A stretch of DNA of 64,000 bases from assembly GCF_947503385.1 (NCBI RefSeq), contig NZ_CANNDO010000001.1:186001-250000 (forward strand). Reading direction: 5' to 3'. Below, piece by piece: positions 3,125 through 26,502 of the stretch. The translations under genes and the position numbers were made by a program. Position 1 is the stretch's first letter. Each line of letters starts with the position of its first letter. The notes under the pieces were generated by a model that saw only the letters and a list, made by a program, of their open reading frames with translations, was not told the origin of the DNA and ran no database searches. This DNA comes from an uncultured Tateyamaria sp. Lineage in GTDB: Bacteria; Pseudomonadota; Alphaproteobacteria; Rhodobacterales; Rhodobacteraceae.

Positions 3125-3809
3125 TGACGGAGTCTCTCGCCTCACGGGTTCGTTCTGTCAACAGCCATCGCATGGCCGTCAGGTCCGGCAGTCCATTTGC
3201 ACCCAACCATCCCGCCGACCGTGTCGGCAGCGCCGCATGCCACCAATGACTGCGGCCAAGCTGGGCTTTTTGTGCGTCTGCGCCGCTTGCATCTGCGAAC
3301 AGTCGCGGCAGATCGCCATCATCGCGGTGGCCCCAGATCGTGCCGTCCTGACCGTCTTCGAATAGGACGCCCTGCACGGGCGGCACCTGAAATCCGTTCA
3401 GCAGGGTCGCGACACCACGTGTCCCATCCTTGGGCACTTCGAACCCTGCGATATGCGCGGCCATAGCGCGGTATGGGCTTTCGTCATGGGCGGGATGAAC
3501 CGGCGGCGGCGATACGATGCCCGTCAGCCCAAAGATCAACGGAAACCGCCGCCCCACCTTGTCCTGACTGGGCAGAAAAATCCCCGCCAGCGGCGCGCCA
3601 ATCACGTCCGGACCCAGCCAGAAATTCAGCGGCGGCGCAGCGGCCCAAGATGCCTCCCAGTCGTCAGCCAACCCTTCCTTGAGGGCGGGCAGCACCCCTT
3701 CCAGCCATGTATCAAAGTGGCTCAGCAGCGCGTGGTCCAATCCATGGGCAAGGAAATCCCCGTAGGCGGGATGTTTGCCGTAGATGACCACCGTTGCTTC
3801 GTCGCTCAT
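3117..3809 (-). CDS. tagF: Type VI secretion regulator TagF
   Basis: 230-residue protein of the TagF family, a post-translational regulator that represses type VI assembly in the systems where it has been studied. The family hallmark near the N-terminus is present (YGKHPAYGDFL, about residues 9-19), followed by the W/F-rich middle (FWLGPDVIGAPLAG) and a GRSHWW segment near the C-terminus. In some species TagF is fused to PppA; here the two are separate genes overlapping by 8 bases, which keeps them coupled. Five bases separate it from tssM upstream. Confidence 0.93.
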   Translation of the reverse strand: MSDEATVVIYGKHPAYGDFLAHGLDHALLSHFDTWLEGVLPALKEGLADDWEASWAAAPPLNFWLGPDVIGAPLAGIFLPSQDKVGRRFPLIFGLTGIVSPPPVHPAHDESPYRAMAAHIAGFEVPKDGTRGVATLLNGFQVPPVQGVLFEDGQDGTIWGHRDDGDLPRLFADASGADAQKAQLGRSHWWHAALPTRSAGWLGANGLPDLTAMRWLLTERTREARDSVNE

Positions 3810-3814
3810 GGGCC

Positions 3815-9240: not shown

Positions 9241-9245
9241 CTCGC

Positions 9246-10580: not shown

Positions 10581-10896
10581 GTCTTAAATGGCTCCAATAT
10601 TCCGTGTCGCAGACCCGCCCGGCTGCGACGCCATGACTTTGCGATTATGTGACAGAAGGGTCAAGCGATACGCGCCTTTCCAAGGGTTTATCCCGCATTA
10701 CACAGAACAAACACCCGAGCAGGCGATTGCATTCGCACGATCACTGCGGGGCAGGTCCGCAGCAGACACCAAATTGGGCCATGTGTTTCTGCCACAGTTC
10801 TTAAACTATTGTGCATCCACACTTCACGCGCATTTGAACAGGCGGCGAAAAAATGCTCATGTCTCGGTAACGGGATTCTAACTTTTGGGTATTGTC
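10581..10896. promoter_or_regulatory. Divergent intergenic region between tssK and adhesin gene
   Basis: This 316-base gap separates the divergent type VI operon and the adhesin gene, so it should hold both promoters. I see no convincing operator dyad or riboswitch. Open frames across it have no homology or ribosome site that I can recognise. Confidence 0.4.
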
Positions 10897-13800
10897 ATGG
10901 CAGTTCAATCTTCTGCAGTCCGGGGACGCCGCGCAACGGGGTATCGCGCGGTCGCTCTGAGCACCACTATTTTGATTACGATGATGGCCGTTCCAGGCGC
11001 CGCGCAAGACACGCTTGTCTGGGATCCGGGCAATGGTGGCAATGCGACCGGCACAGCAGACAATGGCATCTGGGATCAGGATCCCGGCGGCACAGCGAAC
11101 TGGTTCAACGACAGCTTCGGCACACCGGATGATGTGTTTGAGGCAGGCGACAATGCGGAATTCAACGCAACCGTCGGCGTGGGTGAGGGCAATGTGAACG
11201 TGTCCGAAAACATCACCACGGGCACAATCACATTCAACGAGGACGGCTACAACGTCATCGGTTCGGGCGATATCAACGCCACCGGCGACATCAACGTCAC
11301 CAATGATGGCGACACAGCGACCATTTCGAACGAGTTCAGTGCGGCAGGCGTGACCGCGAACGGCGCAGGCGATCTGAACCTGACCGGGGCCAACGCAGGC
11401 GGCCTGACCGTCAACGGCGTGGCGACAACCACCGTCACCGTGAGCAACACGGTTGCAAACGATCTCGACAGCAACAACGGAACCACCATTGTCACCGGTG
11501 GCGGCAACATTCAGGGCACAACCTCGATCACCAACAGCACGGTTAACGTGATCAACACTGGTATCCTGACTGGTGCCACGACAGTTGGCAGCGGCGGTAC
11601 GCTGGATGTTGACAACGGCATGGTCGGCGCGGTGGAGAATACAGGCGGCGGCACCGTGGATATTTCCGGCGGTACGGTCGCCACCCTCGACAACACGGCT
11701 GGCAACACCACGATGACCAACGGGGCCATCAGTGGCCTGACAAATGTGGATTCCGGGCTCGTCACTGTGCAGGGCGGCAACCTGAACGGCAACGTGACCG
11801 TCCAAGGCGGAGAGTTGAATACGACCGGCGCATCGACAGTTATTGCTGGCAGCACAACGGTCAGCGCAGGCGGTACACTTGACGTCGACAATGGCGACAT
11901 TGCCGCAGTCGAGAACACCGGCGGCATCGTCGAGATGTCCAACGGCAGCATTGACAGCCTCGACAACACGGCCGGGACAACGACCATCACAAACGGCACG
12001 GTCGAGACGACGACGAATATCGACGCCGGAACCATCAACCAATCGGGTGGCACCCTGACCGGCGCTGTAACGATCAACGGCGGCGAGATCAATACATCGG
12101 GTGCCGCGATCATCACCGGGCCCACAACAGTGTCCGCGGGCGGTACGCTTGACGTGGACAATGGCGACATCGGCGACGTCGAAAACACCGGAGGTATCGT
12201 CGAAATCGGCGGCGGCAACGTAAACAGCCTCGACAACACCACCGGCAATACAACCATGACCGGCGGCACCATCGACACCACCACGAATATCGACGCGGGC
12301 CTGATCACTCAGTCTGGCGGCACCATGACCGGCGCTGTGACAATCAATGGCGGCGAGATCAACGTGACCGGCGCTACGGCGGTCATCACCGGCGCCACGA
12401 CAGTGTCCGCAGGCGGTACCCTTGATGTGGACAATGGCGACATTGGCGACGTCGAAAACACCGGCGGTATCGTCGAGATTGCCAATGGCAACGTCAACAG
12501 CCTCGACAACACGTCGGGCACTACGACCATCGCAAGCGGCACCATCGACACCACGACCAATGTGGACGGAGGCAGCGTCACCCAATCCGGCGGGACACTC
12601 ACCGGCAATGTGACCATCACCGGCGGGACATTGAATACGACAACCGGTGCTGCAATCATTGCAGGGTCCACAACCGTGACCGGCGGGACCTTCGACGTGG
12701 ATGCGGGCGACATCGCCGATGTGGAAAACAACGGTGGAACGGTCGACATCGCGGGCGGGAACGTCAACAGCATCGACAATACATCGGGCAACACGTTCAT
12801 CTCGGGCGGCTTTGTCGACACGACAACCAATCTGGATGCCGGTTCGATCACCCAATCCGGGGGCACGCTGACTGGCGACGTCACCGTGGGTGGCGGCACG
12901 CTGACCACGACGGCTGGCACGATCCAAGGGTCGCTGACCTCCAGCGGGGGCATCACGAACCTCGGCAACACCGTGCTGGGCGATGCGACCAACAATGGCG
13001 GCACGTTCAACTTGGGCGGCACAGGTTCGGTCTTGGGCACGTTCAACAACAACAACGCATTCACCTTTGCAGGCGGCAGCCTGAACGACGTGACCAACAC
13101 ATCGACCTTTGATGTGACGGGCGCGCAGACAATGACGGGTGATTTCACCAACTCGGGCGGGACACTCATCATTGATCCTGCCGATCAACTGACTGCCACG
13201 TCTTTTGCCAACACCGGCGCGGGCAGCACCATCAACCTTGGCGGGACGCTGGTGGGATCGGTGACCAACGGCACCGGCGGCACGCTCAACGCCCTTGGGA
13301 CAACGGGCGCCATCACTGGTGACCTGAACGTGGGCACCGGCGGCACCGTTTCGCTGCAAGACACGCCCAACGTCTACACTCCGTCCACATTGACAGTGAG
13401 CGGCGGCGGTGACCTGAATGGCGGGACACTGGCCTTTGACGTCGGCACCAACGGCGGCGGTGGCGTTGACAGCGACACGATCAGCTATGGCGGTGCCATT
13501 ACCGGTCAGGTCAACTTCGATTTCAACATCGACAGCGGCCTCGACACCGAAACCGGGACAACCACCCTGATCACGGCAGGCAGTTCTGCCCTGACATTCG
13601 GAACAATCACGGCAAACCAAGACGCAAGCAGCGTGTCTGTCTCCGGCACGAGCACATTTACGTTGGGCGCGTTGCAATACAACCTGACAGACACCGGCAC
13701 TGGTGTGGATATGACTGTCGGGCTTGACGGTGGCATCGGTAACCTTGCTGCGGGTATCGGCCTGACCCAATCGGTCGTCGGCTCGATTGTGAACCGCCCA

Positions 13801-14859
13801 ACCAGCCCCTACGTGACCGACTACGTCGGCTATACCGGCGACAGCCGCAAACGTCTCAAGCGTCAGGCGGCGTCTGACGATCCTTGTGGCATTGGCGGCT
13901 GGGCGCGTGTCAGCGGCGGTGACGCGGATGTGGACGGCTCGTTCTCGTTCAACGGCGGCGAGGCCACAGCCTCTACGCAGAGCCTGAACTACTACAGCAT
14001 CCAGACCGGTGGCGACATCGCCTGTTTCGACGATCGCTTCAACGGGTTCGACATGGCGTTTGGTGTGATTGCGGGTTACAGCACCGGCGACACCAACAGC
14101 ACGGCGTTCCTGCTGGGCAGCACAACGGCGGATACGGTCCTCGACACCGATTTCTCGCAGACCTATGCGGGTGTCTATGCCACCGCATCGCGGGGATCGT
14201 TCTTTGCCGACCTGCAACTGCGCTTCGAAAATCTGGATTACGAGGTCGGCATCACCAACGTGACGCTTGAGAACGGGACACTGGAAAACGTGACCGACTT
14301 CTCCAGCTCGACGACGACCTTGTCCGGGGCGGTTGGCTACTCGTGGCAAATTCCATCGGTTGACGGGCTGAACTTTGTCGGGACGGCGGGCTTCTCTTAT
14401 ACCGAGTTCGACACAGACAGCGTGACCATCACATCCGACTCGACCTCACGCGATTCCACCACTGGAGCGGTTCTGACACCCGGCACCGTGACAGATAGCG
14501 TCCTTCAACTGGACGACTCGAGCATCGAGCTTGGCTTTGTGTCGGGGACATTGTCCCGGTCGCGTGTCCTGCCGGACGAGATCAGCGCGATCAACTATTT
14601 CGGGACGGTCACCTACTACAACGACTTTGCAGACGCACCGACGGCGACGCTGTCGGACGGCGGAAGTGTCGGTAACCTCGCGCTGTCCAACCTTGGCTCT
14701 TACGGCGAGGTCAGCCTTGGCGTGAACTATATCCGCCTGCTGAACACCGGCAGTGACGGCAAGGCGCGCCAGCTTTCGGCAGCCGCCCGTGTCGACTACC
14801 GGTCGGGCAGCAATGTGGACAGCTACGGCATCACCGGACAGCTGCGCATTCAGTTCTGA
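10897..14859 (+). CDS. Repeat-rich autotransporter-like outer-membrane adhesin
   Basis: 1320-residue secreted protein. The N-terminus has a long signal peptide (basic RGRR, then a hydrophobic run ending VPGAAQ). Residues of about 40-1000 are a Gly/Thr/Asn-rich passenger of beta-helix character, including five imperfect 90-92-residue units. The last roughly 300 residues look like an autotransporter beta-barrel: a GGWARVSGG start, alternating strands, and a final phenylalanine (LRIQF), the usual C-terminal signature of outer-membrane barrels. I chose the ATG at 10897; a TTG 12 bases upstream is the only nearby alternative. It is divergent from the type VI operon, and a strong terminator follows. 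Ligand unknown; adhesion or biofilm role is inferred from architecture. Confidence 0.85.
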   Translation: MAVQSSAVRGRRATGYRAVALSTTILITMMAVPGAAQDTLVWDPGNGGNATGTADNGIWDQDPGGTANWFNDSFGTPDDVFEAGDNAEFNATVGVGEGNVNVSENITTGTITFNEDGYNVIGSGDINATGDINVTNDGDTATISNEFSAAGVTANGAGDLNLTGANAGGLTVNGVATTTVTVSNTVANDLDSNNGTTIVTGGGNIQGTTSITNSTVNVINTGILTGATTVGSGGTLDVDNGMVGAVENTGGGTVDISGGTVATLDNTAGNTTMTNGAISGLTNVDSGLVTVQGGNLNGNVTVQGGELNTTGASTVIAGSTTVSAGGTLDVDNGDIAAVENTGGIVEMSNGSIDSLDNTAGTTTITNGTVETTTNIDAGTINQSGGTLTGAVTINGGEINTSGAAIITGPTTVSAGGTLDVDNGDIGDVENTGGIVEIGGGNVNSLDNTTGNTTMTGGTIDTTTNIDAGLITQSGGTMTGAVTINGGEINVTGATAVITGATTVSAGGTLDVDNGDIGDVENTGGIVEIANGNVNSLDNTSGTTTIASGTIDTTTNVDGGSVTQSGGTLTGNVTITGGTLNTTTGAAIIAGSTTVTGGTFDVDAGDIADVENNGGTVDIAGGNVNSIDNTSGNTFISGGFVDTTTNLDAGSITQSGGTLTGDVTVGGGTLTTTAGTIQGSLTSSGGITNLGNTVLGDATNNGGTFNLGGTGSVLGTFNNNNAFTFAGGSLNDVTNTSTFDVTGAQTMTGDFTNSGGTLIIDPADQLTATSFANTGAGSTINLGGTLVGSVTNGTGGTLNALGTTGAITGDLNVGTGGTVSLQDTPNVYTPSTLTVSGGGDLNGGTLAFDVGTNGGGGVDSDTISYGGAITGQVNFDFNIDSGLDTETGTTTLITAGSSALTFGTITANQDASSVSVSGTSTFTLGALQYNLTDTGTGVDMTVGLDGGIGNLAAGIGLTQSVVGSIVNRPTSPYVTDYVGYTGDSRKRLKRQAASDDPCGIGGWARVSGGDADVDGSFSFNGGEATASTQSLNYYSIQTGGDIACFDDRFNGFDMAFGVIAGYSTGDTNSTAFLLGSTTADTVLDTDFSQTYAGVYATASRGSFFADLQLRFENLDYEVGITNVTLENGTLENVTDFSSSTTTLSGAVGYSWQIPSVDGLNFVGTAGFSYTEFDTDSVTITSDSTSRDSTTGAVLTPGTVTDSVLQLDDSSIELGFVSGTLSRSRVLPDEISAINYFGTVTYYNDFADAPTATLSDGGSVGNLALSNLGSYGEVSLGVNYIRLLNTGSDGKARQLSAAARVDYRSGSNVDSYGITGQLRIQF
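11578..12942 (+). repeat. Five tandem ~90-residue coding repeats in the adhesin passenger
   Basis: Five in-frame units begin at 11578, 11854, 12124, 12397 and 12670, with spacings of 276, 270, 273 and 273 bases. Each begins T-T-V-x-x-GGT-L/F-DVD-x-G and contains a VENTGG-like turn, a DNT-x-G-x-T turn and QSGGTLTG-like ends. Units 2-4 are the closest in sequence, suggesting recent duplication or gene conversion. Confidence 0.85.
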
Positions 14860-14933: not shown

Positions 14934-15188
14934 TCAGACCAGCATCTTGGGCGATCCGGTGACGATGGTGCCGCCATGACTGGTGGGCGAGCCAATATGC
15001 GCAACGGGTTTGTTGTCCACGATACACACGGGGCTGCCCACAAGGATCGTCGCGCCGCAGGCGGTCATGTCACCAACCCGCGCAATGGGCAGACCCTCGC
15101 AGGTGGACGCGGTGGAGACGCCCACAATGGCGTTTGGTCCGTGTATGGGACATGCGTGTTTGTCAGTCAGACGTGCTGCGGGTTTCAT
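14934..15188 (-). CDS. PAAR-domain type VI spike tip protein
   Basis: 84-residue PAAR protein expected to cap the VgrG spike. Typical features are the N-terminal AARLTD, the CPIHGPN-like early turn, LPIARVGDMTACG in the middle, and a C-terminal VAHIGSPTSHGGTIVTGSP. The conserved histidines and cysteines that coordinate the tip zinc are present (H11, C13, H16 region; C54; H67, H74 approximate). It has no toxin extension, so it is a bare tip. A good ribosome site (AAGGAG) precedes the ATG by about 6 bases. It is the last gene of the effector island, 25 bases after candidate immunity A. Confidence 0.92.
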   Translation of the reverse strand: MKPAARLTDKHACPIHGPNAIVGVSTASTCEGLPIARVGDMTACGATILVGSPVCIVDNKPVAHIGSPTSHGGTIVTGSPKMLV

Positions 15189-15213
15189 GTCAATCTCCTT
15201 GCGTTGGCTGCGG

Positions 15214-16236
15214 TCAGTGGATCACGCGCCACTGCCCGTTTCCGTCTTTCCAGTAGTAAAGGTACATGGTCGTGAGCCATCCTTCGTTCTCCTGATCGGC
15301 AAAACGGTGTGGCAATGGGACGAACGTGGCCAGACGGCCATTTCCGAACAAGCGCAGTTCGGCGTCCGTCACATCAAACGGGAGGATTTTGCTGTCCGGG
15401 TCGTCAATAATGGTGGCCACGGAATGCTCATAATACACATCCGCAGGTGCGCCCAATGCCGTTGCGTTGCGCGACGTGAACCCCTCCAGATACGGCCTTG
15501 CAGCCCCGGCTCCTACCGCCATTGCAGAGTGGACTTCGCGCATTGCCTGCACAAGTGACCGGCGCATTTCTGGGGTGTCCTGAAGGATCTCGCCGTTCAT
15601 CCACGCCATCTCTGGTAGATCAACCTCTACGTTGACATCAAATCGATACAGCACCCAACCATCTGCATCCTCGCTCACTCGGGCCGGTTCGTTCGCGCCC
15701 ATAAGCGGCTGGGTTTCGACATTCGAGGACATGACCTGCACGGCCGTACCACCGGCTTCCGGTGTCACAAGTTTGACCTGCATACGCACGGACATCGGGC
15801 GGCCATCAAAGCTTGATGGAAAGGACAGGAACTCCCAATAGCCCAGATCAATCCTGAAAAACGGCTCCATGCCATATTCGCCATCAGGCAACATGCGCAC
15901 CATTACGGACAAGGTGTTGCGGCCCTTGCGGAACGCACCATTCAACCGGATCCCGGTATCGATTTCGGCACTGCCCCCGAATGGCTCTGACGGGTCAAAG
16001 ACAGGCACATCGTTCACCAAAAGATGCATCTCTGCCGCCCGAATATTTATATCAATCCCGACTGCTGAAAACTCGGGATTTTTCAGATCCGCCACTGCAA
16101 TTCCTCCGGCAAATACCAAAATCAGCGAATAAACAAGGACACTACATCGTGCCCTTATAAAGCTCGACAGCCTCGAAAATCGGGATTTTCTGGGATGCGG
16201 ACGATCCAACCTTGTGATTGCTCGTCCCCATTTCAT
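15214..16236 (-). CDS. Exported protein, candidate periplasmic immunity protein A
   Basis: Unrecognised family. About 340 residues with a basic stretch followed by a hydrophobic export segment (VLVYSLILVFAGGIAVA), then a soluble beta-rich domain, so a periplasmic location is predicted. It resembles the 336-residue product at 20996-22006: a strand with LxVND/NGxP, a later NTL/NSLVL strand, and a TPE-R helix with (V/L)HSA(M/Y). Both follow candidate effector genes of one family, which is the position of type VI immunity genes. The start is uncertain: in-frame ATGs at 16284 and 16236 lie inside the upstream gene, which ends at 16142, and no ATG sits close to the signal segment; a CTG or TTG start is possible. 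Immunity function is inferred. Confidence 0.72.
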   Translation of the reverse strand: MKWGRAITRLDRPHPRKSRFSRLSSFIRARCSVLVYSLILVFAGGIAVADLKNPEFSAVGIDINIRAAEMHLLVNDVPVFDPSEPFGGSAEIDTGIRLNGAFRKGRNTLSVMVRMLPDGEYGMEPFFRIDLGYWEFLSFPSSFDGRPMSVRMQVKLVTPEAGGTAVQVMSSNVETQPLMGANEPARVSEDADGWVLYRFDVNVEVDLPEMAWMNGEILQDTPEMRRSLVQAMREVHSAMAVGAGAARPYLEGFTSRNATALGAPADVYYEHSVATIIDDPDSKILPFDVTDAELRLFGNGRLATFVPLPHRFADQENEGWLTTMYLYYWKDGNGQWRVIH

Positions 16237-17833
16237 ATGCCGCCTTGACTTCAATCGCCACACCCGACCAATCGACAAGTACATTCAGCTTTGCCTCCGG
16301 ATTTGCTTGTTTTTCCTCGCGCGACAGACCGCTCAGAGTGCCCTTGACGGATGACGACGCCTCACCGCTGGCCGAGAATGTGGCTTCGACGATCCAGGCT
16401 TTGCCCTTGACGTTCAAGTTCAAAGTGAGCTTGACGCCAATCTCGGTGGAGGCCGATCCGGTCACATCCCAAGTATCGCTGCTGATCGCGCGTTTCAGCG
16501 TCACGTCTTCTGTCTTGGCCCACGTGTCGGCATCTGAACTGATATCCCGACCAACGGATGTTTTGGCAAAGAACTCCAGATCACACACCGCACTTGCCAT
16601 CAGGTAGACTGCGGCGGATTCATCCGGCTTGCGTGCCATCCAGTCCCGCGCGTCTTTGACGGCCTCGACAAATTTCCGGGGCACGCTCGGGTGCGCCTGA
16701 GCTGCCGTGAGCAACATGTCGATAACTTCGAACTTGGCCGTGATGCCGATCAGGGGCTGAAAACCCATGGTGATGTCTGCCGCAACACCAACCTTGGAAT
16801 GATCATCGCCCCGCTCCGCCAATTTCAGGGTCGCTTTGGACATGATCATCTTGTGTTCGGTTTTGATCTCTGACCGGATCGAGCGATCCGGTGTGGCACC
16901 GCTGTTGCCTGCGCGCGATTTCAGGCGCTGCATGGCGGCATCGAGAAACGGCACCGCCGATTTGGACTGCTGTGTGGGGTCCGTTTCCGAACCTGCGGAA
17001 ATTTCAAACTCTGAAGCGCCGTAGGTGCCCTTCAGCGATCCCGCAAAGGTAAACTTGGATTCAAAGTTGAAACTGCTGTCATAGGTGCCTTCGAGACCAA
17101 ACTCGAATGCCGACGCTTCCCACTCAAGTTTCGGAAAGGTGCGCACGATTGCGCCCCATTGCGCGCCACCGCCACAGGCGCAGACCTCGAAACTGTTGTC
17201 GCGCCCCAGACTGTTGACCCCTGACCAGATCGACTTGCCCGTGCATTTCATGAACAGCTCGAGATCGGTGCCAGACATGCTTTCACCGGCAAAGTCATAT
17301 TGCAATTTGGTTTCGAGTTTTATGCCGTTTTCCGCCACCGGCGGTGTGCTGTTCAGCTTCAGGGTCGGCACTTGACCTGTCATGCAGCAATTGGCGTTGG
17401 GCTCGTGGGTGACTTCGATTGTCACTGTGTCGACGGTCGGGTTCGTTTCTTTGTCGCATACGACGGCAAGAACACGGTCCTTAGAGTCATCCTTTAATGG
17501 AAGCGTCATGCGGTTTTGCGCATGTGCACAATGGAATGTGATGCCCTTGATGCAGCACCCGCCAGCAGCGGCACAAACCGCACACGCCCCGCCAAATTCC
17601 TGATCGCTGGCCGCAGGCGCAGTGGACGGCATCTCACCATTGGGACCAATGGGCGTGCCGCCTTTGCTGATGTAGTCGCCATATTGCGCCTGCGCCGTGA
17701 TGTCTTCGACCACAGGCCCCTGCCGCCGCGCATTTGCAATCGACCGGCGGGTTTGCAACGCGCTCGAGAACTTGTCGGGCTGGTTCGTGACCAACGTCTC
17801 GATATCGTCCAGCGTGGGGCGATAGTCGTTCAT
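16142..17833 (-). CDS. Candidate type VI effector A (Cys-Cys, beta-rich, unrecognised family)
   Basis: 563-residue protein with no family I recognise. Coupling to the upstream DUF4123 adaptor is exact: stop and start overlap as ATGA at 17830-17833, so I chose MNDYRP as the start. The N-terminal 80 residues are polar and helical. A cysteine-rich patch follows (GACAVCAAAGGCCIKG, then HCAH, NCC, and CAC further on), and from about residue 200 onward there are repeated strand-like segments with alternating hydrophobic residues (FEFGLEGTYDSSF, FAGSLKGTYG, KAAYEMGTS). It is a full-length paralogue of the 591-residue product at 21987-23762. Adaptor before it, exported protein after it, and VgrG/PAAR in the same run suggest a cargo effector acting on the cell envelope; that function is inference. 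Confidence 0.75.
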   Translation of the reverse strand: MNDYRPTLDDIETLVTNQPDKFSSALQTRRSIANARRQGPVVEDITAQAQYGDYISKGGTPIGPNGEMPSTAPAASDQEFGGACAVCAAAGGCCIKGITFHCAHAQNRMTLPLKDDSKDRVLAVVCDKETNPTVDTVTIEVTHEPNANCCMTGQVPTLKLNSTPPVAENGIKLETKLQYDFAGESMSGTDLELFMKCTGKSIWSGVNSLGRDNSFEVCACGGGAQWGAIVRTFPKLEWEASAFEFGLEGTYDSSFNFESKFTFAGSLKGTYGASEFEISAGSETDPTQQSKSAVPFLDAAMQRLKSRAGNSGATPDRSIRSEIKTEHKMIMSKATLKLAERGDDHSKVGVAADITMGFQPLIGITAKFEVIDMLLTAAQAHPSVPRKFVEAVKDARDWMARKPDESAAVYLMASAVCDLEFFAKTSVGRDISSDADTWAKTEDVTLKRAISSDTWDVTGSASTEIGVKLTLNLNVKGKAWIVEATFSASGEASSSVKGTLSGLSREEKQANPEAKLNVLVDWSGVAIEVKAAYEMGTSNHKVGSSASQKIPIFEAVELYKGTM

Positions 17834-18780
17834 GCCAATGCTCCCGGAGCTACTGTTTTGCCACGCGCACGCTTGGCCGCGCGCGCCTGTTCGAACCAAT
17901 CGCGCAGCGCCGTCGCCTTGGTCAGGCTGACCGGTTCAGCGCGGTTCAGGATCGCGGCGGCTTCGGCCTCGCGCGTGTCGAATTCCGGCCCGAACACCAT
18001 CATCGCATCCGCGAAATAGCCGATATGCTTGAGCGATTGAAGACCGTAAGCAGGCGCTTTCTCGGGTGCAAGCTGCGCGCAGGTCATCACCACCTGTTCC
18101 GGCGCGTTGGGAAACCGCGTGTGCAAATCGCGCGCAAGCTTGCGGCGGCTGCGCACGCCATGCAGGCGTGTCATCTCGGCATAGGCCGCCTCCAGAACGC
18201 TGAAGGCCTTGGGATGCGCGGGCGCAGGCCCCTCGGGCATCGCCAGTTCAAGAAAATGGCCACGGAATACGTCCGGGGCCGCCAGCGGTGTCAGGCCGGT
18301 CCATCCCCCCAGCAACGGCGACACAGGCACCCACAACCGCAGCACCGGCGCCAGCAGATGCGCAAGGTGATCGGCGTCCAACGCCTGCATTGCGTCGCCC
18401 AGAACGCGGGGATCATAAAACCGGAAATAGACCGGCGCATGTTCGTCCGCTGGCGTCCACAGCATCGTGAATTTGCGAAAATGATTGCGCAATTCCCGTT
18501 CGCTCGCGTCAGAGGCAAAGACGATACCCCAATGTTCGATATTGCCCAGCACGTCCAAATCGTCCGCGATCGGCGTGTCCGGCAACACCGGGATCAGCCA
18601 AGGCGCGTGGGGCGCGTCTTCCGGCGTGTCAGCGCGGTAAAGGCACACGCCGCCATTGTCGTGAACCAGTTGCGGCATTTCCGGACAGGACGCACCGTCA
18701 ATGATCGTCCATAGCGGCGCTCCGGCATCCTTGAGGATGTCTGCGCTGGATACAGGACCTGCCCCGGCGGCAAGAACCAT
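17830..18780 (-). CDS. DUF4123 type VI effector adaptor A
   Basis: 316-residue DUF4123-family protein. Members act as cytosolic adaptors (Tap/TEC) that load a cognate effector onto VgrG. The central signature HAPVYFRFYDPRVL near residues 113-126 is clear, preceded by the HFRKFTMLW strand. The C-terminal third (RLHGVRSRRKLARDLHTRFPNAPEQV) is helical. Its start ATG shares one base with the VgrG stop (TGATG), and its stop overlaps the effector start, an arrangement that couples VgrG, adaptor and cargo. Paralogue at 23759-24985. Confidence 0.88.
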   Translation of the reverse strand: MVLAAGAGPVSSADILKDAGAPLWTIIDGASCPEMPQLVHDNGGVCLYRADTPEDAPHAPWLIPVLPDTPIADDLDVLGNIEHWGIVFASDASERELRNHFRKFTMLWTPADEHAPVYFRFYDPRVLGDAMQALDADHLAHLLAPVLRLWVPVSPLLGGWTGLTPLAAPDVFRGHFLELAMPEGPAPAHPKAFSVLEAAYAEMTRLHGVRSRRKLARDLHTRFPNAPEQVVMTCAQLAPEKAPAYGLQSLKHIGYFADAMMVFGPEFDTREAEAAAILNRAEPVSLTKATALRDWFEQARAAKRARGKTVAPGALA

Positions 18781-20735
18781 CAGCCGTCATCCTGCATCGG
18801 GCAGTGCGAGACAAAGGGCGCGCCCTCACCCGCTGCCGCTTGCAACACGGCGGGCACCGCAGGGATCGCCGACGCACCGGGGGACGCGCTGCCAACGCGC
18901 AGCATCGGTGCGATGTCGACCTTGCCGCCCTGCACCACGACCGCTGCGGCACCGGACACCAGCGTCACCTTATTGGCGTCCAACACGATGTTGCTGGCCT
19001 TGATGGTCAGATCGCCGCCCGCCTTGATCTTGTAGTCTCCCGAAACGTCCGTGTTCCAGTCCGCATCGGTCTTTTCCTTGACCTCACCGGTCACGGTCAG
19101 GTCGCGCTTGCCCTCAATGCTTTCCGTCCGGTTGGCCGCCACGTCGAGGTTGGAGTCATTGCCCACGGACACGTTGTCATCAAATTCCACCCGCCGCTTG
19201 GCCGAGTTCTTGACATGCATGTCGAGGTTCTTCTGGGCGTGCATGTAGATGAATTCTTCGCCCGCCTGATCCTCAAAGGTCAGCTCATTGAACCCTTCGC
19301 CCTCGTGGCTTTTGGTTTTGAACACCGACCGGCTCTTGTTGTCGGGCAGTTCATGCGGCGGCATGTTCACCGCGTTGTATACACAGCCGGTGACGATGGG
19401 CTTGTCCGGGTCGCCTTCGAGATGTTCGACGATCACCTCCATCCCGATGCGCGGCACAACCATGCCGCCCCACCCACGCGCGGCCCAGTTCTGGCTCACT
19501 CGGCACCGCATGGAAAACGCGTTCTCAAGATCCCAGTGGTAGCAGACGAGGATGCGGCCAAATTCGTCGCAGTCAATCTCGCCATCACCCACAACAAAGG
19601 CTGTTTGCGGCCCCTGAATGCGGGGGATGCGCGTGCGCTGTTCCGGGCGCAGAGGCGTGTCGTCCGGCATCAGCACATAGTCCGCCGAAAACGGCATCTC
19701 GTCGCCGCCCGTGTCGCCAGAGCGGTAGGCCTGCGCGCGGAACCGATGCCGCGTCTCGATGCAGATATAGCGTTTGCCGGTCGCACCTGCGACCTCGTCC
19801 CCTTTGAGCGTCACGCACCAGCCAGCCCCCAGAACGGGGATGTCGCCAGTTGCCTTGTGGCGCGGCCCCTGCCCCGCCTCCAGCTCTTGGCGGCGCTTGA
19901 CCATCAGGTCGCCCTCACCGCTTTCGAGATAGTCGCCGGGATAGTCATAGCTTTCGATGTCACCTTGGGCGTAGGCAGCATCGCCCGCCTGATCCACCTC
20001 TTGGGTGGCGTTGGGCATCTTGAAGTTAAACTCGTTGAGGCGCACCGACCCGGTGGTGACACGGGCACCGCCTTCCCAGTGCCAGAAATGCTCCTCGTCG
20101 TGCATGTTGTGGCCCTGCACACCCCAGAACGACCGCGATCCGCCCGGCACCTCGGGCAGCGAGGCGGGGTAATCGACCAGCACCAGCGTGTGGTTGCCAT
20201 TGGTATGCTCATAGCACCACGTGATCCCAAACCGTTCCATCAGGCGGGCAACGAAATCCGCATCGCTTTCGCCATATTGGACGGTGTATTCCAGCTCTGG
20301 GTAGCTGTCGGACAGGTTGATCTTGTAATGCGGGCTGCCAAGATCGGCATAGGCACCCAGCACCTCTTCGATGATATCGACGACCGTCATCTCGTGGAAA
20401 ATCTTGTGGTTTCGGCGCAGACCGGCCACGTGCATCCACGGACGCAGCACCAGATGATAATGCGCACCCCCATCGGCGATGCCGCCATTGGTCGCCTCGC
20501 ACACGATCCCGTCATAGTACCGCTTGCCCTCGGACATCTCGATCTCGACCGTGGCGTGGGTGCCCAGCAGTTGGTTGAGGTCAATCGCAGCATCATCCGC
20601 CAACGCCTCGACCCGCCATTCAAACGGACGTGACAGGGTTTCGACACCGTCCATGCGCAACATGACCAGCGCGTTGCCACCCAAGGCGGTTGTCAGGCTC
20701 GCCCGGCGTTCACTCTGACTGAAGGACGCGTTCAT
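18780..20735 (-). CDS. vgrG: Type VI spike protein VgrG
   Basis: 651-residue VgrG, the trimeric spike that pierces target cells and carries cargo. The N-terminal gp27-like part begins SQSERRASLTTALGGNALVMLRMDG; a gp5-like OB fold follows (WDLENAFSMRCRVSQNWAARGWGGMVVPRIGMEVIVEHLEGDPDKPIVTGCVYNA region, about residues 400-460), and then the repeat-type beta-helix (KSRSVFKTKSHEGEGFNELTFEDQAG). The C-terminal tail after about residue 610 is short, alanine/proline-rich and ends CPMQDDG, with no catalytic extension. A GGAGC ribosome site lies 8 bases before the ATG. A 260-base gap upstream may hold its own promoter. Confidence 0.94.
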   Translation of the reverse strand: MNASFSQSERRASLTTALGGNALVMLRMDGVETLSRPFEWRVEALADDAAIDLNQLLGTHATVEIEMSEGKRYYDGIVCEATNGGIADGGAHYHLVLRPWMHVAGLRRNHKIFHEMTVVDIIEEVLGAYADLGSPHYKINLSDSYPELEYTVQYGESDADFVARLMERFGITWCYEHTNGNHTLVLVDYPASLPEVPGGSRSFWGVQGHNMHDEEHFWHWEGGARVTTGSVRLNEFNFKMPNATQEVDQAGDAAYAQGDIESYDYPGDYLESGEGDLMVKRRQELEAGQGPRHKATGDIPVLGAGWCVTLKGDEVAGATGKRYICIETRHRFRAQAYRSGDTGGDEMPFSADYVLMPDDTPLRPEQRTRIPRIQGPQTAFVVGDGEIDCDEFGRILVCYHWDLENAFSMRCRVSQNWAARGWGGMVVPRIGMEVIVEHLEGDPDKPIVTGCVYNAVNMPPHELPDNKSRSVFKTKSHEGEGFNELTFEDQAGEEFIYMHAQKNLDMHVKNSAKRRVEFDDNVSVGNDSNLDVAANRTESIEGKRDLTVTGEVKEKTDADWNTDVSGDYKIKAGGDLTIKASNIVLDANKVTLVSGAAAVVVQGGKVDIAPMLRVGSASPGASAIPAVPAVLQAAAGEGAPFVSHCPMQDDG

Positions 20736-20774
20736 TCAAAAAGCTCCGCAAATAGATGTCGCATCCCATGTACG

Positions 20775-20797
20775 CCAGCCTGAAAGCGGACATGGAA
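20775..20797 (+). repeat. Intergenic dispersed repeat copy 1
   Basis: A 23-base segment matching 22 of 23 bases of 37161-37183, including a 17-base identical core TGAAAGCGGACATGGAA. Both copies lie in intergenic DNA in unrelated contexts, here upstream of vgrG. It may be a small dispersed element of this genome. Confidence 0.5.
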
Positions 20798-20995
20798 TGT
20801 ATTGGCATTTGCAGCAGCCTGCCACGTCGCCGCGGAACAGGAAAGGCAGGAATTCCATACGTTTAAACTCTGGCCCACACCGGGAGACGGGACGGGGGAC
20901 AAACCCGACGCGATGGGCAGCGCTACTGATATACGCATGGCATTTCGGTCCGATGCGGCACCGCGACATTGTCGGCAATCATCCGCCACAGGGGG

Positions 20996-22006
20996 TCAGA
21001 ACGTCAGTTGCTGCGTGTGGCACACGAAAACGCCGGCTGGCAGAGCGCAAAAATAGACGCGGACCGTGCGGGGGCGTTGTGCGTCTGGCACCATGAACCG
21101 GATCGGTGCTTGCCGAAATGTGACCAGCCGGTCGTCCGGTCCGCTGCGCAAGGGTACGCTGGCCGCCTCTTGCGGGGACAGAAGCGGCATCAGTTGCGCC
21201 CCGTCAGGCCCCGACAGCGGACTGCGGTCAAGAACGGCGCTGACCAGTTCGGGTATTGTATCGTACCCACGGGCACGGCGCAGTCGCTCAAGATGCGGGC
21301 CGAGGATCGTGCTCCACGCCTCAACATCGCCCTCCGCATAGGCGCTGTGCAGTGCCGCGCTCGCCTCGTAAAGAACCGTGCGGTTCTCCGGCGTGTCGGC
21401 GAGCGGTATGGCATCTGCCCACGGCACTTGCGTGAGGGCCGGATCGTTCAGGTCAAACGAAACCGTGATCCGCCGTGCCGCCGCGTCCGACACCCGGTTG
21501 CCGTAAACGATCTGCGTTTCCTCGATACGAATGGCAGAGGTGGGTGCAAAACTTTGGGCGTTGGCACCGTCATCCACCTGAACAAAGCGGCCTTCTCCCA
21601 CGTCATAACGCAAGGTCAGCAAGACCGACTGGCCCACGGGCGCTCCGCGCAGCTGTGTCAGGCCGATCTGGATGTAGACGCCCGCATGTGGCGTGAATGC
21701 CTGCGCATCAAGATCGAAAGGTTCAACATCAAGGACAAGACTGTTTGGCCCGTGCTGCAATGCCATCTCGACGGGCACCGTCAGCACCTGGTTTTCCAGC
21801 CGCAAGTGCTGTGCCATGGGCGCACCGTTCACCGACAACTGAAAGAAGGCGTTATCGGTGATGACGTTTGCACTATAGGTGTGCTGAAAATGGGACGTGG
21901 TCACGGCGGTCTCCTCAGACGATGCGGTCACTGGCAGGGCCAAAAGCGCGACACAGGCGAACAGTGCGCGGAGCAGTGCAAGCGGTTCAAATCTCGATCC
22001 ATTCAT
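20996..22006 (-). CDS. Exported protein, candidate periplasmic immunity protein B
   Basis: 336-residue protein of unrecognised family with a clear signal peptide (LLRALFACVALLALPVTASS), so periplasmic. Its body resembles the product at 15214-16236: a LSVNGAPM strand, GPNSLVL, a RITVSFDLNDP strand, then TPENRTVLYEASAALHSAYAEGD and a helical C-terminus. The ATG lies 20 bases inside the end of candidate effector B, so the two are translationally coupled. Effector followed by coupled exported protein is the usual order for a periplasm-acting type VI toxin and its immunity protein. Immunity role is inferred. Confidence 0.78.
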   Translation of the reverse strand: MNGSRFEPLALLRALFACVALLALPVTASSEETAVTTSHFQHTYSANVITDNAFFQLSVNGAPMAQHLRLENQVLTVPVEMALQHGPNSLVLDVEPFDLDAQAFTPHAGVYIQIGLTQLRGAPVGQSVLLTLRYDVGEGRFVQVDDGANAQSFAPTSAIRIEETQIVYGNRVSDAAARRITVSFDLNDPALTQVPWADAIPLADTPENRTVLYEASAALHSAYAEGDVEAWSTILGPHLERLRRARGYDTIPELVSAVLDRSPLSGPDGAQLMPLLSPQEAASVPLRSGPDDRLVTFRQAPIRFMVPDAQRPRTVRVYFCALPAGVFVCHTQQLTF

Positions 22007-23762
22007 CTTCGCTTCCTTCCGGGACCATCAATACACGTCGCCATCGACCCTCGCCCATATTTGACTGGGCCGATGCCCCGCTTGTTGTTTCGCTTGTACC
22101 AAACGTTTCGGCGTTGCCCGTGTCAAAGGTCTGTGTGTCGTCATCCTCGACAGATGCGCCCATTTCGGCTGTGGCGTAAGCCTCCAGTTCGATGCCTTGG
22201 AAAATTCGCTGCTTTTCGAATTTGACGGTGCCGTCGGACATGTCCGTCGCCCGCCCCCGGAACCGCCAGCCGGTGCTGACCGAACCACCCACAGCGGCTG
22301 AGGCCGAGATGAACCACGTTTCAAGGTCGATCCGCGCGGACGCGACGAGCGATCCGGTGAATTCCACGCCAGCCTCAAATTGCTGTTGCAGGTTGCTGAA
22401 CGCCTGTTCCCAACCGGGCGTGTTCGAAATCGTCACCTGAACCGCTTGCTGAATCCGGTAGGCGACATCGCCTGATCCGCGCAAGGTCAGCGTACATTGC
22501 GCACTGGCCCGCAGCACATTGCCCGGCTGCGCAATGTAGGCGGCTATTTCCCGCCCGCGCGGAATGCGCGACAGCATCAACTGAAGTAGGTCGACCGACC
22601 CCGTCACCGACGGGTTCATCGACAGCGAAAACGGATCGACATTCACCTCCAGATCAGGGCTGCCCGATTTGCCCTTCACCTCGATGGACGGAATGCTGAC
22701 CGTGACGGCAAAGGCCAGCGTCAGCGACACAGGCTGCGGCAGGGTGGGCAGGGTGTAGTCAAATGACGGCGGCGTGGATTCGTTCGACAAACCGCTCATC
22801 GCAGACTGAACAGCGTCCACGACCGCGAACAGCGGGTGGCGCTGAATAGGGCCTTGCGGCTGGTCGACGCGCGGCGCTGTTGTGACTGTCTGTCCGGCGG
22901 TCAACTGAAGGGTCTGGTTGCCCACCTCGCCCGTGACCTCGCCCGACAGGCCCGCGCTGAGCGTGGGCAGCCGCGTGATGGTAAAGGTCGCGGACACCTG
23001 ACCGGTCAGCGATGCGCTGGCCTTGATGTGCGGGATCGCGAATATTTCGAGGCCCTGCGCCCGTGGCACCATGCACTGATACGGGTTGACCGTCGCCGGT
23101 TGCGCGTTTCGGTACGACGATGCGCTGACCACCACACCGGACAGATACATCACCGCCAAAGCCTCGGGCGGCAGAATGTTCGATGAAAAGGCGGGCATCT
23201 GGAACGGCGAGGTTACTGTCACCTCTCCTGAATCCATAATTGCCTCGGGACCGGCGGCATGGCGCCGCGGATTGACCGACGGGCGGGCGAAATTCATTTT
23301 GCACGCCTCCTTGTCAGTCAATGTCACCTTGGCCTTGGCCGACGGTTGACCGCCCACCGGGTCTTTGGCGATCACATACAGACGGTTTGGCCCATCCTGC
23401 GGGACCGGCCACGCAACCTTGCGCGATCCATCCGACGAATCCTCGACCTCGAACGCCCGCAGACAACACGGCTCGCCTGCCACGCAATCACAGGCCGCAG
23501 CGGCAAATTCCGGGTCATTCATGGCCCGGGACGTGGTGGCATCCGCAATTTCCGCATCCGCCTGTTGCATATAGCTCTGCGCCGCCGCTTCCGAACTGGC
23601 ATAGCTGGGCATTCCGGGCAGGTTTGACGCCACACCACTGCGCGTCTGCTGGAGCGAGGTAAAGACATCGCCACCTTGCAAGCCGTTCTCGATCATCCGC
23701 CCAAGCGTGCCGTCAATTTCGCTCAGAAGGTCCGCTTGTTGCGTGTAGGGGTCGGTGCTCAT
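21987..23762 (-). CDS. Candidate type VI effector B (paralogue of effector A)
   Basis: 591-residue protein, family not recognised. It aligns by eye along its length with the product at 16142-17833: an LQQTRS-like helix, a DPEF-xx-A-CxC-x4-CCLR cysteine patch, and a C-terminal end with WFISASAAVGGSV and LEAYATAEMGAS against ATFSASGEASSSV and VKAAYEMGTS. The middle (about 200-450) is rich in strand-like segments (ASASLTGQVSATFTITRL, AGLSGEVTGEVG). No transmembrane helix or known catalytic motif is obvious. The start overlaps the adaptor stop by ATGA, exactly as in cassette A. A pore-forming or envelope-damaging role is possible given the exported partner, but is inference. Confidence 0.76.
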   Translation of the reverse strand: MSTDPYTQQADLLSEIDGTLGRMIENGLQGGDVFTSLQQTRSGVASNLPGMPSYASSEAAAQSYMQQADAEIADATTSRAMNDPEFAAAACDCVAGEPCCLRAFEVEDSSDGSRKVAWPVPQDGPNRLYVIAKDPVGGQPSAKAKVTLTDKEACKMNFARPSVNPRRHAAGPEAIMDSGEVTVTSPFQMPAFSSNILPPEALAVMYLSGVVVSASSYRNAQPATVNPYQCMVPRAQGLEIFAIPHIKASASLTGQVSATFTITRLPTLSAGLSGEVTGEVGNQTLQLTAGQTVTTAPRVDQPQGPIQRHPLFAVVDAVQSAMSGLSNESTPPSFDYTLPTLPQPVSLTLAFAVTVSIPSIEVKGKSGSPDLEVNVDPFSLSMNPSVTGSVDLLQLMLSRIPRGREIAAYIAQPGNVLRASAQCTLTLRGSGDVAYRIQQAVQVTISNTPGWEQAFSNLQQQFEAGVEFTGSLVASARIDLETWFISASAAVGGSVSTGWRFRGRATDMSDGTVKFEKQRIFQGIELEAYATAEMGASVEDDDTQTFDTGNAETFGTSETTSGASAQSNMGEGRWRRVLMVPEGSEDEWIEI

Positions 23763-24985
23763 GTTGCAGGCTCCTGCGTGCGTGCGCTGGCGACAAGCCA
23801 GTCAACGAGGGCGTTCTTCTTTTGCCACGGTTCGACGCGGGACTGGTTCAGGATTGCCCCCGCTTCGGGGTAGGTGTCCCAGAAATCCTGCCCGCGCATC
23901 ATGATGGCGCGCGCCATAATCGACACCTGCTTGACCGATTTCAGGTGAAAACGGTGGGCGGCGACCGGTGCGGCCTGTGCCGCCTTGCGATACTCGGACC
24001 AGTCGCGATTGGGAAACTCATCACTCAGTTTACGGGCGAGGCTGCGCTCTGCCTTTTTGCGTTGCAGGCGCTGGAACCGGTCGTATTCCACAGTATCAAT
24101 CCGAAACGCGCCACGGGTCTGCGCACCTTCATCAGACAACAGCCGGACCCGCGCCAGACGTCCCACGCAACTTGCCGCGGAATCAAAGGGCGTAATGGGC
24201 AGCGCCATATAGGCGTGATCCGGCAAAACCGTGCGCGGGCTGAGCGGGGCATAGACTTCGTCCATCGGTTCCATGAACCGTCCCAGCGTGGCGGGCGATA
24301 GCGCGCTGGCCATATCGAGCATCACCCGCGGATCATAAAAGCGGAAATAGACCGGCGCCTGCGCCTCGCCCGGAATGTAGGCCATGGTAAAGCGCCGCAG
24401 ATGCCGCTTGAGGACATCCATAGTGGCCGCGCTGCGCAGGAAAATCCCCACATGCGCTTCCGGGCTCTGGTCGAGAATGGCGTCCAGCATTGTGCTGCCC
24501 GGACGCAGGTGTACCAACCACGGGCCAGTGGCCAGCGTCCCTGCATCGGTGGAGGCATAAAGACATGCGTGCGCATCGCCCGACGTGGCGAGCGTTTGCG
24601 GCAATCCCGGCCACGCAACCCCGTCCAAAAGCGCCCAGAGGGACCTGTGCGGCTGCAAGGTATATGCTCCCACCTCGTCCACCTCGGACGGATAGGTCGT
24701 GTCGGCATCGCAAAGCCGCCCGAACAACAGCGGTGTTTCGCCGTCGGCATCCTTGGAAATGCTGACCAGTTCGGGGCTGCACGTGTCGGTGATGGGTGCC
24801 AGCGCTTCGACCGCCTCCAGCGCAATCCCACGCGGATCCAGTGCGGCCTTCAGCGCCGCGCGGTACCCATCCGCGGTGTCAGCGCACAGAACCAACCGGC
24901 CCATGACCTTGTCGGTCTTTGCTCCCCAGAACCGCGCCGCAGGCGTTAACGCGTGCAACCGGACATATCCGATCCACGGGGTCAC
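23759..24985 (-). CDS. DUF4123 type VI effector adaptor B with N-terminal extension
   Basis: 408-residue DUF4123 protein. The family core aligns with adaptor A (HLRRFTMAYIPGEAQAPVYFRFYDPRVM, near residues 194-221). About 115 extra N-terminal residues (GYVRLHALTPAARFWGAK ... ALAPITDTC) form a possible separate small domain absent from adaptor A, and the C-terminal helical region is longer, with a KK-rich RFQRLQRKKAERSLARKLSDEF segment. The predicted start is a GTG at 24985 with no good ribosome site; an ATG at codon 28 is an alternative. It begins the island and couples to effector B by an ATGA overlap. Its likely job is loading effector B onto the VgrG encoded downstream. Confidence 0.85.
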   Translation of the reverse strand: MTPWIGYVRLHALTPAARFWGAKTDKVMGRLVLCADTADGYRAALKAALDPRGIALEAVEALAPITDTCSPELVSISKDADGETPLLFGRLCDADTTYPSEVDEVGAYTLQPHRSLWALLDGVAWPGLPQTLATSGDAHACLYASTDAGTLATGPWLVHLRPGSTMLDAILDQSPEAHVGIFLRSAATMDVLKRHLRRFTMAYIPGEAQAPVYFRFYDPRVMLDMASALSPATLGRFMEPMDEVYAPLSPRTVLPDHAYMALPITPFDSAASCVGRLARVRLLSDEGAQTRGAFRIDTVEYDRFQRLQRKKAERSLARKLSDEFPNRDWSEYRKAAQAAPVAAHRFHLKSVKQVSIMARAIMMRGQDFWDTYPEAGAILNQSRVEPWQKKNALVDWLVASARTQEPAT

Positions 24986-25359: not shown

Positions 25360-26502
25360 ATGACAATCACGCAACAAACGATGATCTACATCGGCAACCT
25401 TGCCGAAATTGACACAAACGAAAGTGATGGGGACGGCGAGTTCGATAGCATCCCCCTCGGCACGTATGATCAGAACACGTTGCAAAATACGCTGGTCACG
25501 GGCAACGACGCTGACAGTAGCGGTCATATAAGCGATGATGAGCAAGCCTTTGAAACGGTCGAATACGACTTTGGCGGCGGGCTCATCTCTACCAACACCG
25601 ACCACACGGCGGTCTACAACATCACGGTCCTGCTTGGGGACGGCAGCACCAAGACGTTCGATGCGCTGCTGATCCAGATGACGAATGGAGACACGTTTTT
25701 AACCGATCTCCTCGACAACAGCGAATTTGACAATCTCAACATTCAGACGATCACCGTTAACTCCGTGGGCGTCGACAACTATTCCGGATGGCTCACGGGC
25801 CAGTCTGTGGACAATAGCCAGATCGTCTGTTTCACCTCCGGCACCCTGCTGTCGGGTCCCGACGGCGCGCTGCCGGTCGACGCGGTCCGGCCTGGCACTT
25901 ACCTGAACACCGCCGAGAACGGGCCGCAGCCGGTCCGCTGGATTGGCCGCGCCAAGATCGACGCAGCCAGACTGGCCGCCAATCCCAAACTGCGCCCCGT
26001 GCGGATCATGGCCGGGGCACTGGCACCGGGCCTGCCGTGCAACGATCTTGCGGTATCGCGGCAGCACCGGATGCTGGTGCGTTCTCGGATTGCCGAACGA
26101 ATGTTTGGTGAGGCAGAGGTTTTGGTGCCCGCCATCGCCTTGGTTGACCTGCCCGGTATCTTCGTCGACGACACCGTGGGCGATGTGACCTATTTTCATG
26201 TGCTCTTTGACCGACACGAGGTGATCTACGCCGAAGACGCCCCGACAGAGAGCCTTTATGCAGGACCGGGCGCGCTGCGCACGCTGAGCCCAGCAGAGAT
26301 TGAAGAGGTTCAGTCCATATTCCCTGATCTGATCGAAAAAAAGCATCTTCCCGACCCCGCGCGGTTGATGCCGTCCGGCGTAAAACGGCGGAATATGATG
26401 GCGCGCCTGACCAAAAACGGTCAGCCTGTTCTGTGCGCAAGTTTAGAATTCGGGCGCGCGCATGATGCCGACCAAACCGGTGGTATGCACAACAACAGTT
26501 GA
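25360..26502 (+). CDS. Hint-domain (Hedgehog/intein-like) protein
   Basis: 380-residue protein. Residues 1-about 150 are acidic, Asp/Asn/Thr-rich strands. From C157 (VCFTSGTLLSGPDG) comes a Hint autoprocessing-type domain: GxLPVDAVRPG, QPVRWIGR, RPVRIMAGAL, VSRQHRMLVRS, VPAIALVDLPG and YFHVLFDRHEVIYAEDAPTES. The C157 position is where Hint domains carry the catalytic cysteine. The family is common in Rhodobacteraceae and usually secreted by type I systems, though no ABC exporter gene lies nearby. The true substrate and whether it self-cleaves are unknown. A GAGG ribosome site precedes the ATG. Confidence 0.88.
   Translation: MTITQQTMIYIGNLAEIDTNESDGDGEFDSIPLGTYDQNTLQNTLVTGNDADSSGHISDDEQAFETVEYDFGGGLISTNTDHTAVYNITVLLGDGSTKTFDALLIQMTNGDTFLTDLLDNSEFDNLNIQTITVNSVGVDNYSGWLTGQSVDNSQIVCFTSGTLLSGPDGALPVDAVRPGTYLNTAENGPQPVRWIGRAKIDAARLAANPKLRPVRIMAGALAPGLPCNDLAVSRQHRMLVRSRIAERMFGEAEVLVPAIALVDLPGIFVDDTVGDVTYFHVLFDRHEVIYAEDAPTESLYAGPGALRTLSPAEIEEVQSIFPDLIEKKHLPDPARLMPSGVKRRNMMARLTKNGQPVLCASLEFGRAHDADQTGGMHNNS

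Follow-up and report, generated by a model that had tools for sequence, protein, structure and literature searches.

Candidate type VI secretion cargo cassettes in an uncultured Tateyamaria sp.: two anciently separated forms and probable exchange at a seam inside the effector gene

Introduction

Rhs and other polymorphic toxins join a constant 5' part to an exchangeable 3' toxin region with matching immunity, and leave 3' fragments behind. Tandem copies, copies beside effector remnants and type matching with the toxin are typical of immunity genes, and chimeric adaptors are reportedly the subject of a 2015 paper in the EMBO J. In the type VI secretion system (T6SS), the aux-1 module of V. cholerae comprises VgrG-1, the DUF4123 adaptor Tap-1, an effector and its immunity protein; in the available parts of that study, the 3' end of tap-1 is linked to the cargo and the exchanged regions vary in size (PMC5361080). 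In modular effectors of other species, cited in the introduction of a further study, C-terminal toxin domains are swapped by recombination (PMC8546570). Here, a 64,000-nucleotide (nt) stretch from an uncultured Tateyamaria sp. (contig NZ_CANNDO010000001.1; hereafter, the window) was analysed, in which two cassettes, A and B, flank a single VgrG gene. Each consists of a DUF4123 adaptor (AdpA, AdpB), a candidate effector (EffA, EffB) and an exported candidate immunity protein (ImmA, ImmB). These cassettes are likely to be two anciently separated forms of one T6SS cargo-effector family with periplasmic immunity, between which parts are exchanged at a seam. The sequences show that the effector has two parts, which meet at a conserved Cys motif: an N-terminal module of ~90 residues, existing in two unrelated types, which recombines independently of the body, and a body of two homologous types, each of which travels with immunity of the matching type.

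Results

The two cassettes and their homology

The preliminary description placed eight genes on the minus strand in the order AdpB-EffB-ImmB, VgrG, AdpA-EffA-ImmA, PAAR, and all eight were verified in the sequence where it had put them. Coordinates are those of the window; lengths are in amino acids (aa), and model confidence is the predicted local distance difference test (pLDDT).

23759..24985, minus strand: AdpB, DUF4123 adaptor with an N-terminal extension of ~110 aa (PF13503, E 5.7e-25, aa 116-234)
21987..23762, minus strand: EffB, candidate effector (14 proteins including itself; AlphaFold2 pLDDT 71.5; synteny)
20996..22006, minus strand: ImmB, exported candidate immunity protein with a Sec-like signal (homologues 3' of the effector in the tabulated cassettes; signal-like segment)
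18780..20735, minus strand: VgrG spike (TIGR03361, E 6e-145; PF05954, PF22178)
17830..18780, minus strand: AdpA, short DUF4123 adaptor (PF13503, E 4.7e-18)
17540..17557, minus strand: seam, comprising the CC codons of the Cys motif at 17552-17557 (EffA aa 93-94) and the next four residues (aa 95-98), the place at which relatives change between N-module and body types (alignment of cassette G408_X; change point in base composition)
16142..17833, minus strand: EffA, candidate effector, 563 aa from ATG (7 proteins including itself; AlphaFold2 pLDDT 72.2)
15214..16284, minus strand: ImmA, exported candidate immunity protein, bounds of the open reading frame (ORF) (homologue of ImmB; signal-like segment at ORF aa 49)
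14934..15188, minus strand: PAAR tip protein (PF05488, E 3.3e-19)

The DUF4123 domain scores 66.0 and 88.3 bits in the two adaptors against a curated cut-off of 25.8, and the VgrG and PAAR families also lie above their Pfam cut-offs; EffA, EffB, ImmA and ImmB have no Pfam or NCBIfam family above cut-off. As described previously, adaptor and effector overlap by ATGA at both joints, and each effector is followed by an exported protein. EffA probably starts at the ATG at 17833 rather than at the TTG that opens its ORF at 17899. ImmB and EffB overlap by 20 nt, the start of ImmA is uncertain (the ORF from 16284 overlaps EffA at length), and a gap of 260 nt lies ahead of VgrG. Promoter-like (1) and terminator-like (8) sites did not exceed shuffled counts.

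The adaptors are 32% identical over 282 aa (E 2e-37). In single-sequence comparison, the effectors (E 2e-5) and the exported proteins (E 9e-7) match over short stretches only; comparison between profiles settles their relatedness. The effector bodies gave a probability of 97.4 (E 1.4e-11, 401 columns; 96.9 with a smaller row set) against at most 0.5 in five column-shuffled controls, and the exported proteins gave 99.5 (E 1.4e-22, 292 columns) against at most 2.1 in five such controls; six unrelated profile pairs reached at most 0.1. The N-terminal ~75 residues of the effectors had no detectable relation (probability 18.8, the match being limited to 25 columns at the Cys motif; at most 0.9 in five shuffles), the motif CxC...CC being their sole likeness. 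Between A and B, the adaptors, the effector bodies and the exported proteins are thus homologous and the N-modules unrelated, so that the earlier statement that all three cassette members are related holds outside the first ~75 effector residues and fails within them.

That three gene pairs flanking one VgrG are homologous outside the effector N-terminus is what would be expected if a cassette had been copied around VgrG and the copies had diverged where they stood without swapping any part, the sense in which the preliminary description spoke of a duplicated cassette. However, each effector is only ~16-18% identical to its neighbour and 65-73% identical to relatives elsewhere (65% and 73%), and the two cassettes are therefore not a local tandem duplication. 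Additionally, A-type VgrG-Adp-Eff-Imm-PAAR units and B-type Adp-Eff-Imm units without an adjoining VgrG occur elsewhere, and the A and B N-modules are unrelated. Local duplication is thus largely refuted, chiefly by the far closer relatives elsewhere, and we regard it as very improbable.

Exchange of N-module and body

Each of the N-module, body and immunity types (two of each) was given a profile, and the profiles were scored on the 20 cassettes in which both halves of the effector are present. Body type equalled immunity type in 20 of 20, and nearest-neighbour scores, which use no profiles, gave the same result: in all 20, the nearest immunity protein came from a cassette sharing the body type. 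Some of these rows belonged to the training sets of the profiles; six (G708, G694_A, G663, G604, G598 and G756_2) belonged to none, and body and immunity types agree in all six. N-module type, in contrast, agrees with body type in 12 cassettes and disagrees in 7 (n=19, the N-module of G248 being untypable), or in 9 and 6 (n=15) when four Rhodovulum rows are counted as one and G663 and G604 as one. All four combinations were found: besides the concordant cassettes, a B-type N-module is joined to an A-type body in G408_X and G081_4, and an A-type N-module to a B-type body in G756_2, G663, G604, G598 and G081_3.

Trees of 27 effectors point the same way. Free trees recover the A-type N-module group (98/98) and the A-type body group (100/100). 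Holding the A-type N-module rows together costs the body tree 243 log units of likelihood (approximately unbiased [AU] test, p-AU 6.2e-56), and holding the A-type body rows together costs the N-module tree 32 (p-AU 0.0037), with G248, G596 and two Rhodovulum near-duplicates set aside in these tests; earlier tests on fewer rows were weaker (0.053, 0.234 and 0.030). The N-module spans ~100 columns, G248, G081_3 and G081_4 sit on long branches, and the N-module of G248 scores 12 vs 16 bits for the two types. These features would suit an explanation in which the conflict reflects no more than rate differences or recurrent gains and losses, and what look like recombinants are long-branch artefacts or assembly chimaeras. 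Yet the seven discordant cassettes come from six genomes and every effector is one open frame, N-module types can be clear-cut (101 vs 5 bits in G408_X, 56 vs 20 in G756_2), the tree conflict is significant in both directions, and the window has a compositional break at the same seam (see below). An artefact of this kind is accordingly improbable in our judgement.

Exchange of parts is most directly visible in G408_X, from a congeneric genome that also holds an A cassette. Its adaptor is sister to AdpB (97/95) and its N-module is nearest to a B-type effector (61% identity), whereas its body falls in the A clade (100/100) and its immunity protein in the ImmA clade (100/99). Windowed identity favours B up to the CC of the Cys motif and A beyond it. 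G408_X is thus a natural recombinant in which AdpB and a B-type N-module were joined at the Cys motif to an A-type body and ImmA. The suggestion that the cassettes may exchange is borne out by such recombinants, with the exchange placed inside the effector gene.

Distances among 15 cassettes are in line with this partition, the correlation being 0.85 for immunity-body, 0.71 for immunity-N-module, 0.61 for adaptor-N-module, 0.58 for N-module-body, 0.56 for adaptor-immunity and 0.43 for adaptor-body (the set excludes G596, three near-duplicate Rhodovulum rows and, because they lack an adaptor, G081_2 and G081_4). In partial correlations, adaptor-N-module given body retained 0.49 and adaptor-body given N-module 0.11; immunity-body given N-module retained 0.76 and immunity-N-module given body 0.51. 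The coupling of the adaptor has exceptions: B-like long adaptors are found in 4 of 5 cassettes that combine an A-type N-module with a B-type body.

A break in base composition at the seam of cassette A

The guanine-plus-cytosine (GC) content is 62.0% in VgrG, 63.4% in AdpA and 62.0% in the first 300 nt of EffA, then 55.6% in the rest of EffA and 54.7% in ImmA, and returns to 61.6% in PAAR. With a 10-nt grid the best deviant segment of the A unit spans 15124-17543, and with a 3-nt grid 15126-17552; its far end lies inside PAAR. When a single change point is fitted across AdpA-EffA-ImmA, the last base of low GC is 17551 (positions 17495-17687 lie within 2 log units), adjoining the CC codons of EffA. 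The observed segment value was reached in 0 of 1000 shuffles with 30-nt blocks, 0 of 500 with 90-nt and 1 of 500 with 150-nt blocks, and that of the change point in 0 of 1000 (30-nt) and 1 of 1000 (150-nt). The best segment of the B unit is far weaker (6.1 vs 15.3 log units). Protein composition is a poor explanation of the drop, because the homologous G408_A cassette has none at the seam; the strongest GC break of G708 and that of G694_A fall within vgrG. Cassette A of the window therefore probably received its present body and ImmA by a crossover at the seam.

The exported proteins as candidate immunity proteins

A simple hydrophobicity scan, run without a control, placed a signal-like segment ahead of the conserved part in 20 of 21 immunity proteins; in the remaining one, that of G408_X, the segment lies outside the scanned stretch and is visible by eye. 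A loose pattern flagged a Tat-like RR motif in 7 of 21, and the rest look Sec-like, so that export seems to be kept while its route changes. The immunity gene lies 3' of the effector in 21 of 21 tabulated cassettes, a count that holds partly by construction, since a Pelagivirga locus (L006) without such a match was dropped. Three tandem copies are present in R. kholense and three in G708, and copies stand beside effector remnants in G081 (contig C38) and G694 (contig C18). These remnants are effector C-terminal fragments of 190 and 158 aa, found in two genera amid unrelated surroundings with an immunity gene after or overlapping them (L015 9773-11373; L053 1258-2764).

At ~340 aa the third gene product is large for an immunity protein and has no Pfam family above cut-off, which would suit a second exported component, either a co-effector or an envelope protein. 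Against this stand the agreement of its type with that of the body in every one of the 20 cassettes, the tandem copies, and the copies beside remnants among unrelated genes; a co-effector or envelope protein is consequently rather unlikely. Effector and partner form a linked pair of one type with the partner predicted to be exported, as expected for T6SS antibacterial effector-immunity pairs. Their occurrence in tandem and next to effector remnants fits immunity genes, and the exported proteins resemble immunity proteins of the periplasm.

Architecture and possible activity of the effectors

EffB comprises a helical N-module (aa 1 to ~90), the Cys motif (91-100), Ig-like strands and a long antiparallel beta-sheet. 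The AlphaFold2 models of both effectors share one order of elements, from N-terminal helices through Ig-like strands to long strands interrupted by short helices, although they are not independent, the input alignment of EffA having contained EffB relatives. These low-confidence models suggest a large membrane-type beta-sheet. Polar residues conserved in at least 85% of 27 effectors are D83, five Cys and R407. The search against known families yielded no match for the effectors, including none to an enzymatic toxin family, and a match to DUF7223 was weak (E 0.0015, 3 of 14). Structure libraries contained no named relative, an absence that excludes nothing. No Rhs repeat, PAAR, MIX, pretoxin or other marker domain matched in Pfam at E 0.1 in 14 effectors. 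The N-modules were considered as a general loading marker similar to MIX and rejected as such: among 390 genomes searched the A-type matched only this effector family, and among 11 genomes searched the B-type likewise matched only this family.

Taken together, the following mechanism can be proposed. The adaptor would grip the N-module while loading the effector on VgrG, and VgrG/PAAR would deliver the effector into the periplasm of a rival cell, where the body would damage the envelope, most likely the membrane; the immunity protein, exported in the producer, would block the body. Because the genes run from adaptor through N-module and body to immunity, with the seam between N-module and body, a single crossover there would exchange weapon and antidote together and leave the adaptor with its docking part.

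Sharing of VgrG

The cassettes share a single spike and tip locally, as had been proposed, but the genome as a whole has four VgrG genes, along with six DUF4123 genes. In the congener G408, three DUF4123 genes are accompanied by two VgrGs, and a separate DUF4123 gene lies ~3 kb from one of these VgrGs, which makes it plausible that one VgrG carries both effectors. Several adaptor cassettes around one VgrG are not peculiar to the locus: contig C5 of the same genome (270-291 kb; L001/L002) has three DUF4123 genes around one VgrG, with two PAAR-like genes. Encoded there are a PGAP1-like lipase candidate accompanied by a Tli4-type protein, a Tle1-like lipase close to a GAD-like protein, and a hydrophobic effector candidate of no assigned family beside a membrane-like protein.

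Relatives and gene orders

Protein searches returned 14 EffB-type and 7 EffA-type proteins, the window's own included in each, and Tateyamaria sp. SN6-1 contributed one of either type (P0012, P0026). In overlapping genome samples, and counting the window's genome each time, matches were found in 3 of 295 genomes with the EffB profile, 2 of 394 with the EffA profile, 3 of 389 with a combined profile and 8 of 390 with a second combined profile. A protein search with the combined profile found one protein, the already aligned G248 effector. Scanning genome contigs gave no locus with EffB alone and 3 with the profile; scanning viral contigs gave no match, and EffA had no plasmid match. Named or group-coded matches all fall in the window's family (Rhodovulum and relatives), only some searches having reached outside its order. 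Within the genus, any DUF4123 gene is present in 4 of 20 genomes and these effectors in 2 of 20 (the window's genome and G408).

Gene orders vary. VgrG-Adp-Eff-Imm-PAAR is found in G408 and G694 (contig C23), in G708 with its three Imm copies and in G248 with an Imm fragment; VgrG-Adp-PAAR-Eff-Imm in G663, G604 and G598; Adp-Eff-Imm without an adjoining VgrG in Rhodovulum and in the second cassette of G408; Adp-Eff-Imm-Eff-Imm in G081; and Adp-Eff-Imm-Imm-Imm in R. kholense. On Rhodovulum plasmids, the EffB-type cassette lies directly 3' of T6SS genes or, in the stretch seen, without them. Homologues are linked to DUF4123 and VgrG genes, with a DUF4123 adaptor in 19 of 21 tabulated cassettes and a neighbouring VgrG gene in 10 of 21, of which two are truncated at a contig end; VgrG pieces lie near a further cassette, G081_3. 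Rows left out before counting were the Pelagivirga locus, whose adaptor frame is in pieces, the two C-terminal fragments, and G694 C15 (L049 320-2131), whose effector frame is broken by a TAG that was not mended, its pieces being scored apart. G596 (L054 8287-14764) encodes an adaptor, an effector candidate with the Cys motif and no N-module, and a distant Imm, followed by PAAR and VgrG on the opposite strand; this candidate is possibly a third effector type and stands outside all type counts.

Further T6SS genes lie on the same strand of the window at 114-10580 (TssK/VasE, DotU/OmpA, IcmF, TagF, a phosphatase and a kinase). Between PAAR and tssK, on the opposite strand, is a repetitive ORF of 1324 aa (10885-14859, plus strand) that reads as autotransporter-like and has no Pfam match; G408 has a 1949-aa ORF at the equivalent place (L031 6013-11862), and a giant gene likewise precedes tssK on two Rhodovulum plasmids. 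A Hint_2-domain protein (25360-26502, plus strand) is divergent from AdpB.

Discussion

The evidence supports a concrete, testable rule for matching cargo effectors to adaptors and antidotes. The part expected to bind the adaptor is separable from the part that the antidote must recognise, all four combinations existing naturally, and the exchange of a toxin's loading end, with body and antidote moving together, suggests how such weapons get re-armed. A further outcome is a superfamily of effectors and immunity proteins that neither Pfam nor NCBIfam names. The odds are about even for the broader reading of this superfamily as an undescribed plug-in system, in which two N-modules and two body-immunity blocks meet at one Cys-motif seam, a single crossover re-arms an adaptor and one VgrG can carry both forms.

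The process itself, modular recombination of T6SS cargo cassettes, is of a known kind; what appears to be new is an exchange inside the effector gene, in a family for which no description was found. Our literature searches returned no description of this effector family or of such a seam in a DUF4123-loaded effector. Like Rhs and other polymorphic toxins, the family has a swappable 3' candidate toxin region with matching immunity and leftover 3' fragments; unlike them, it has no marker domain (14 effectors, Pfam), each half exists in alternative types, and all bodies belong to a single homologous superfamily. The lipase cassettes of contig C5 similarly group DUF4123 genes, effector candidates and Tli4-type or other partners around one VgrG, although two of their effectors match lipase families (PGAP1-like, Tle1-like) and EffA and EffB match none. 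Agrobacterium loci with tap1 (DUF4123) and vgrG share DUF4123-associated effector-immunity pairs 3' of vgrG, recombination hot spots and clusters of immunity homologues, whereas the hot spots reported in the available parts of that study are located in vgrG itself and 3' of vgrG or tap rather than inside a tap1-linked effector (PMC8546570). The aux-1 module resembles the window's cassettes in its adaptor-effector-immunity order, mosaic evolution and orphan immunity genes; in the parts of that paper at hand, hot spots are predicted in tap-1 and vgrG-1, with scattered breakpoints (PMC5361080), whereas here the seam lies inside the effector gene, at the Cys motif between N-module and body.

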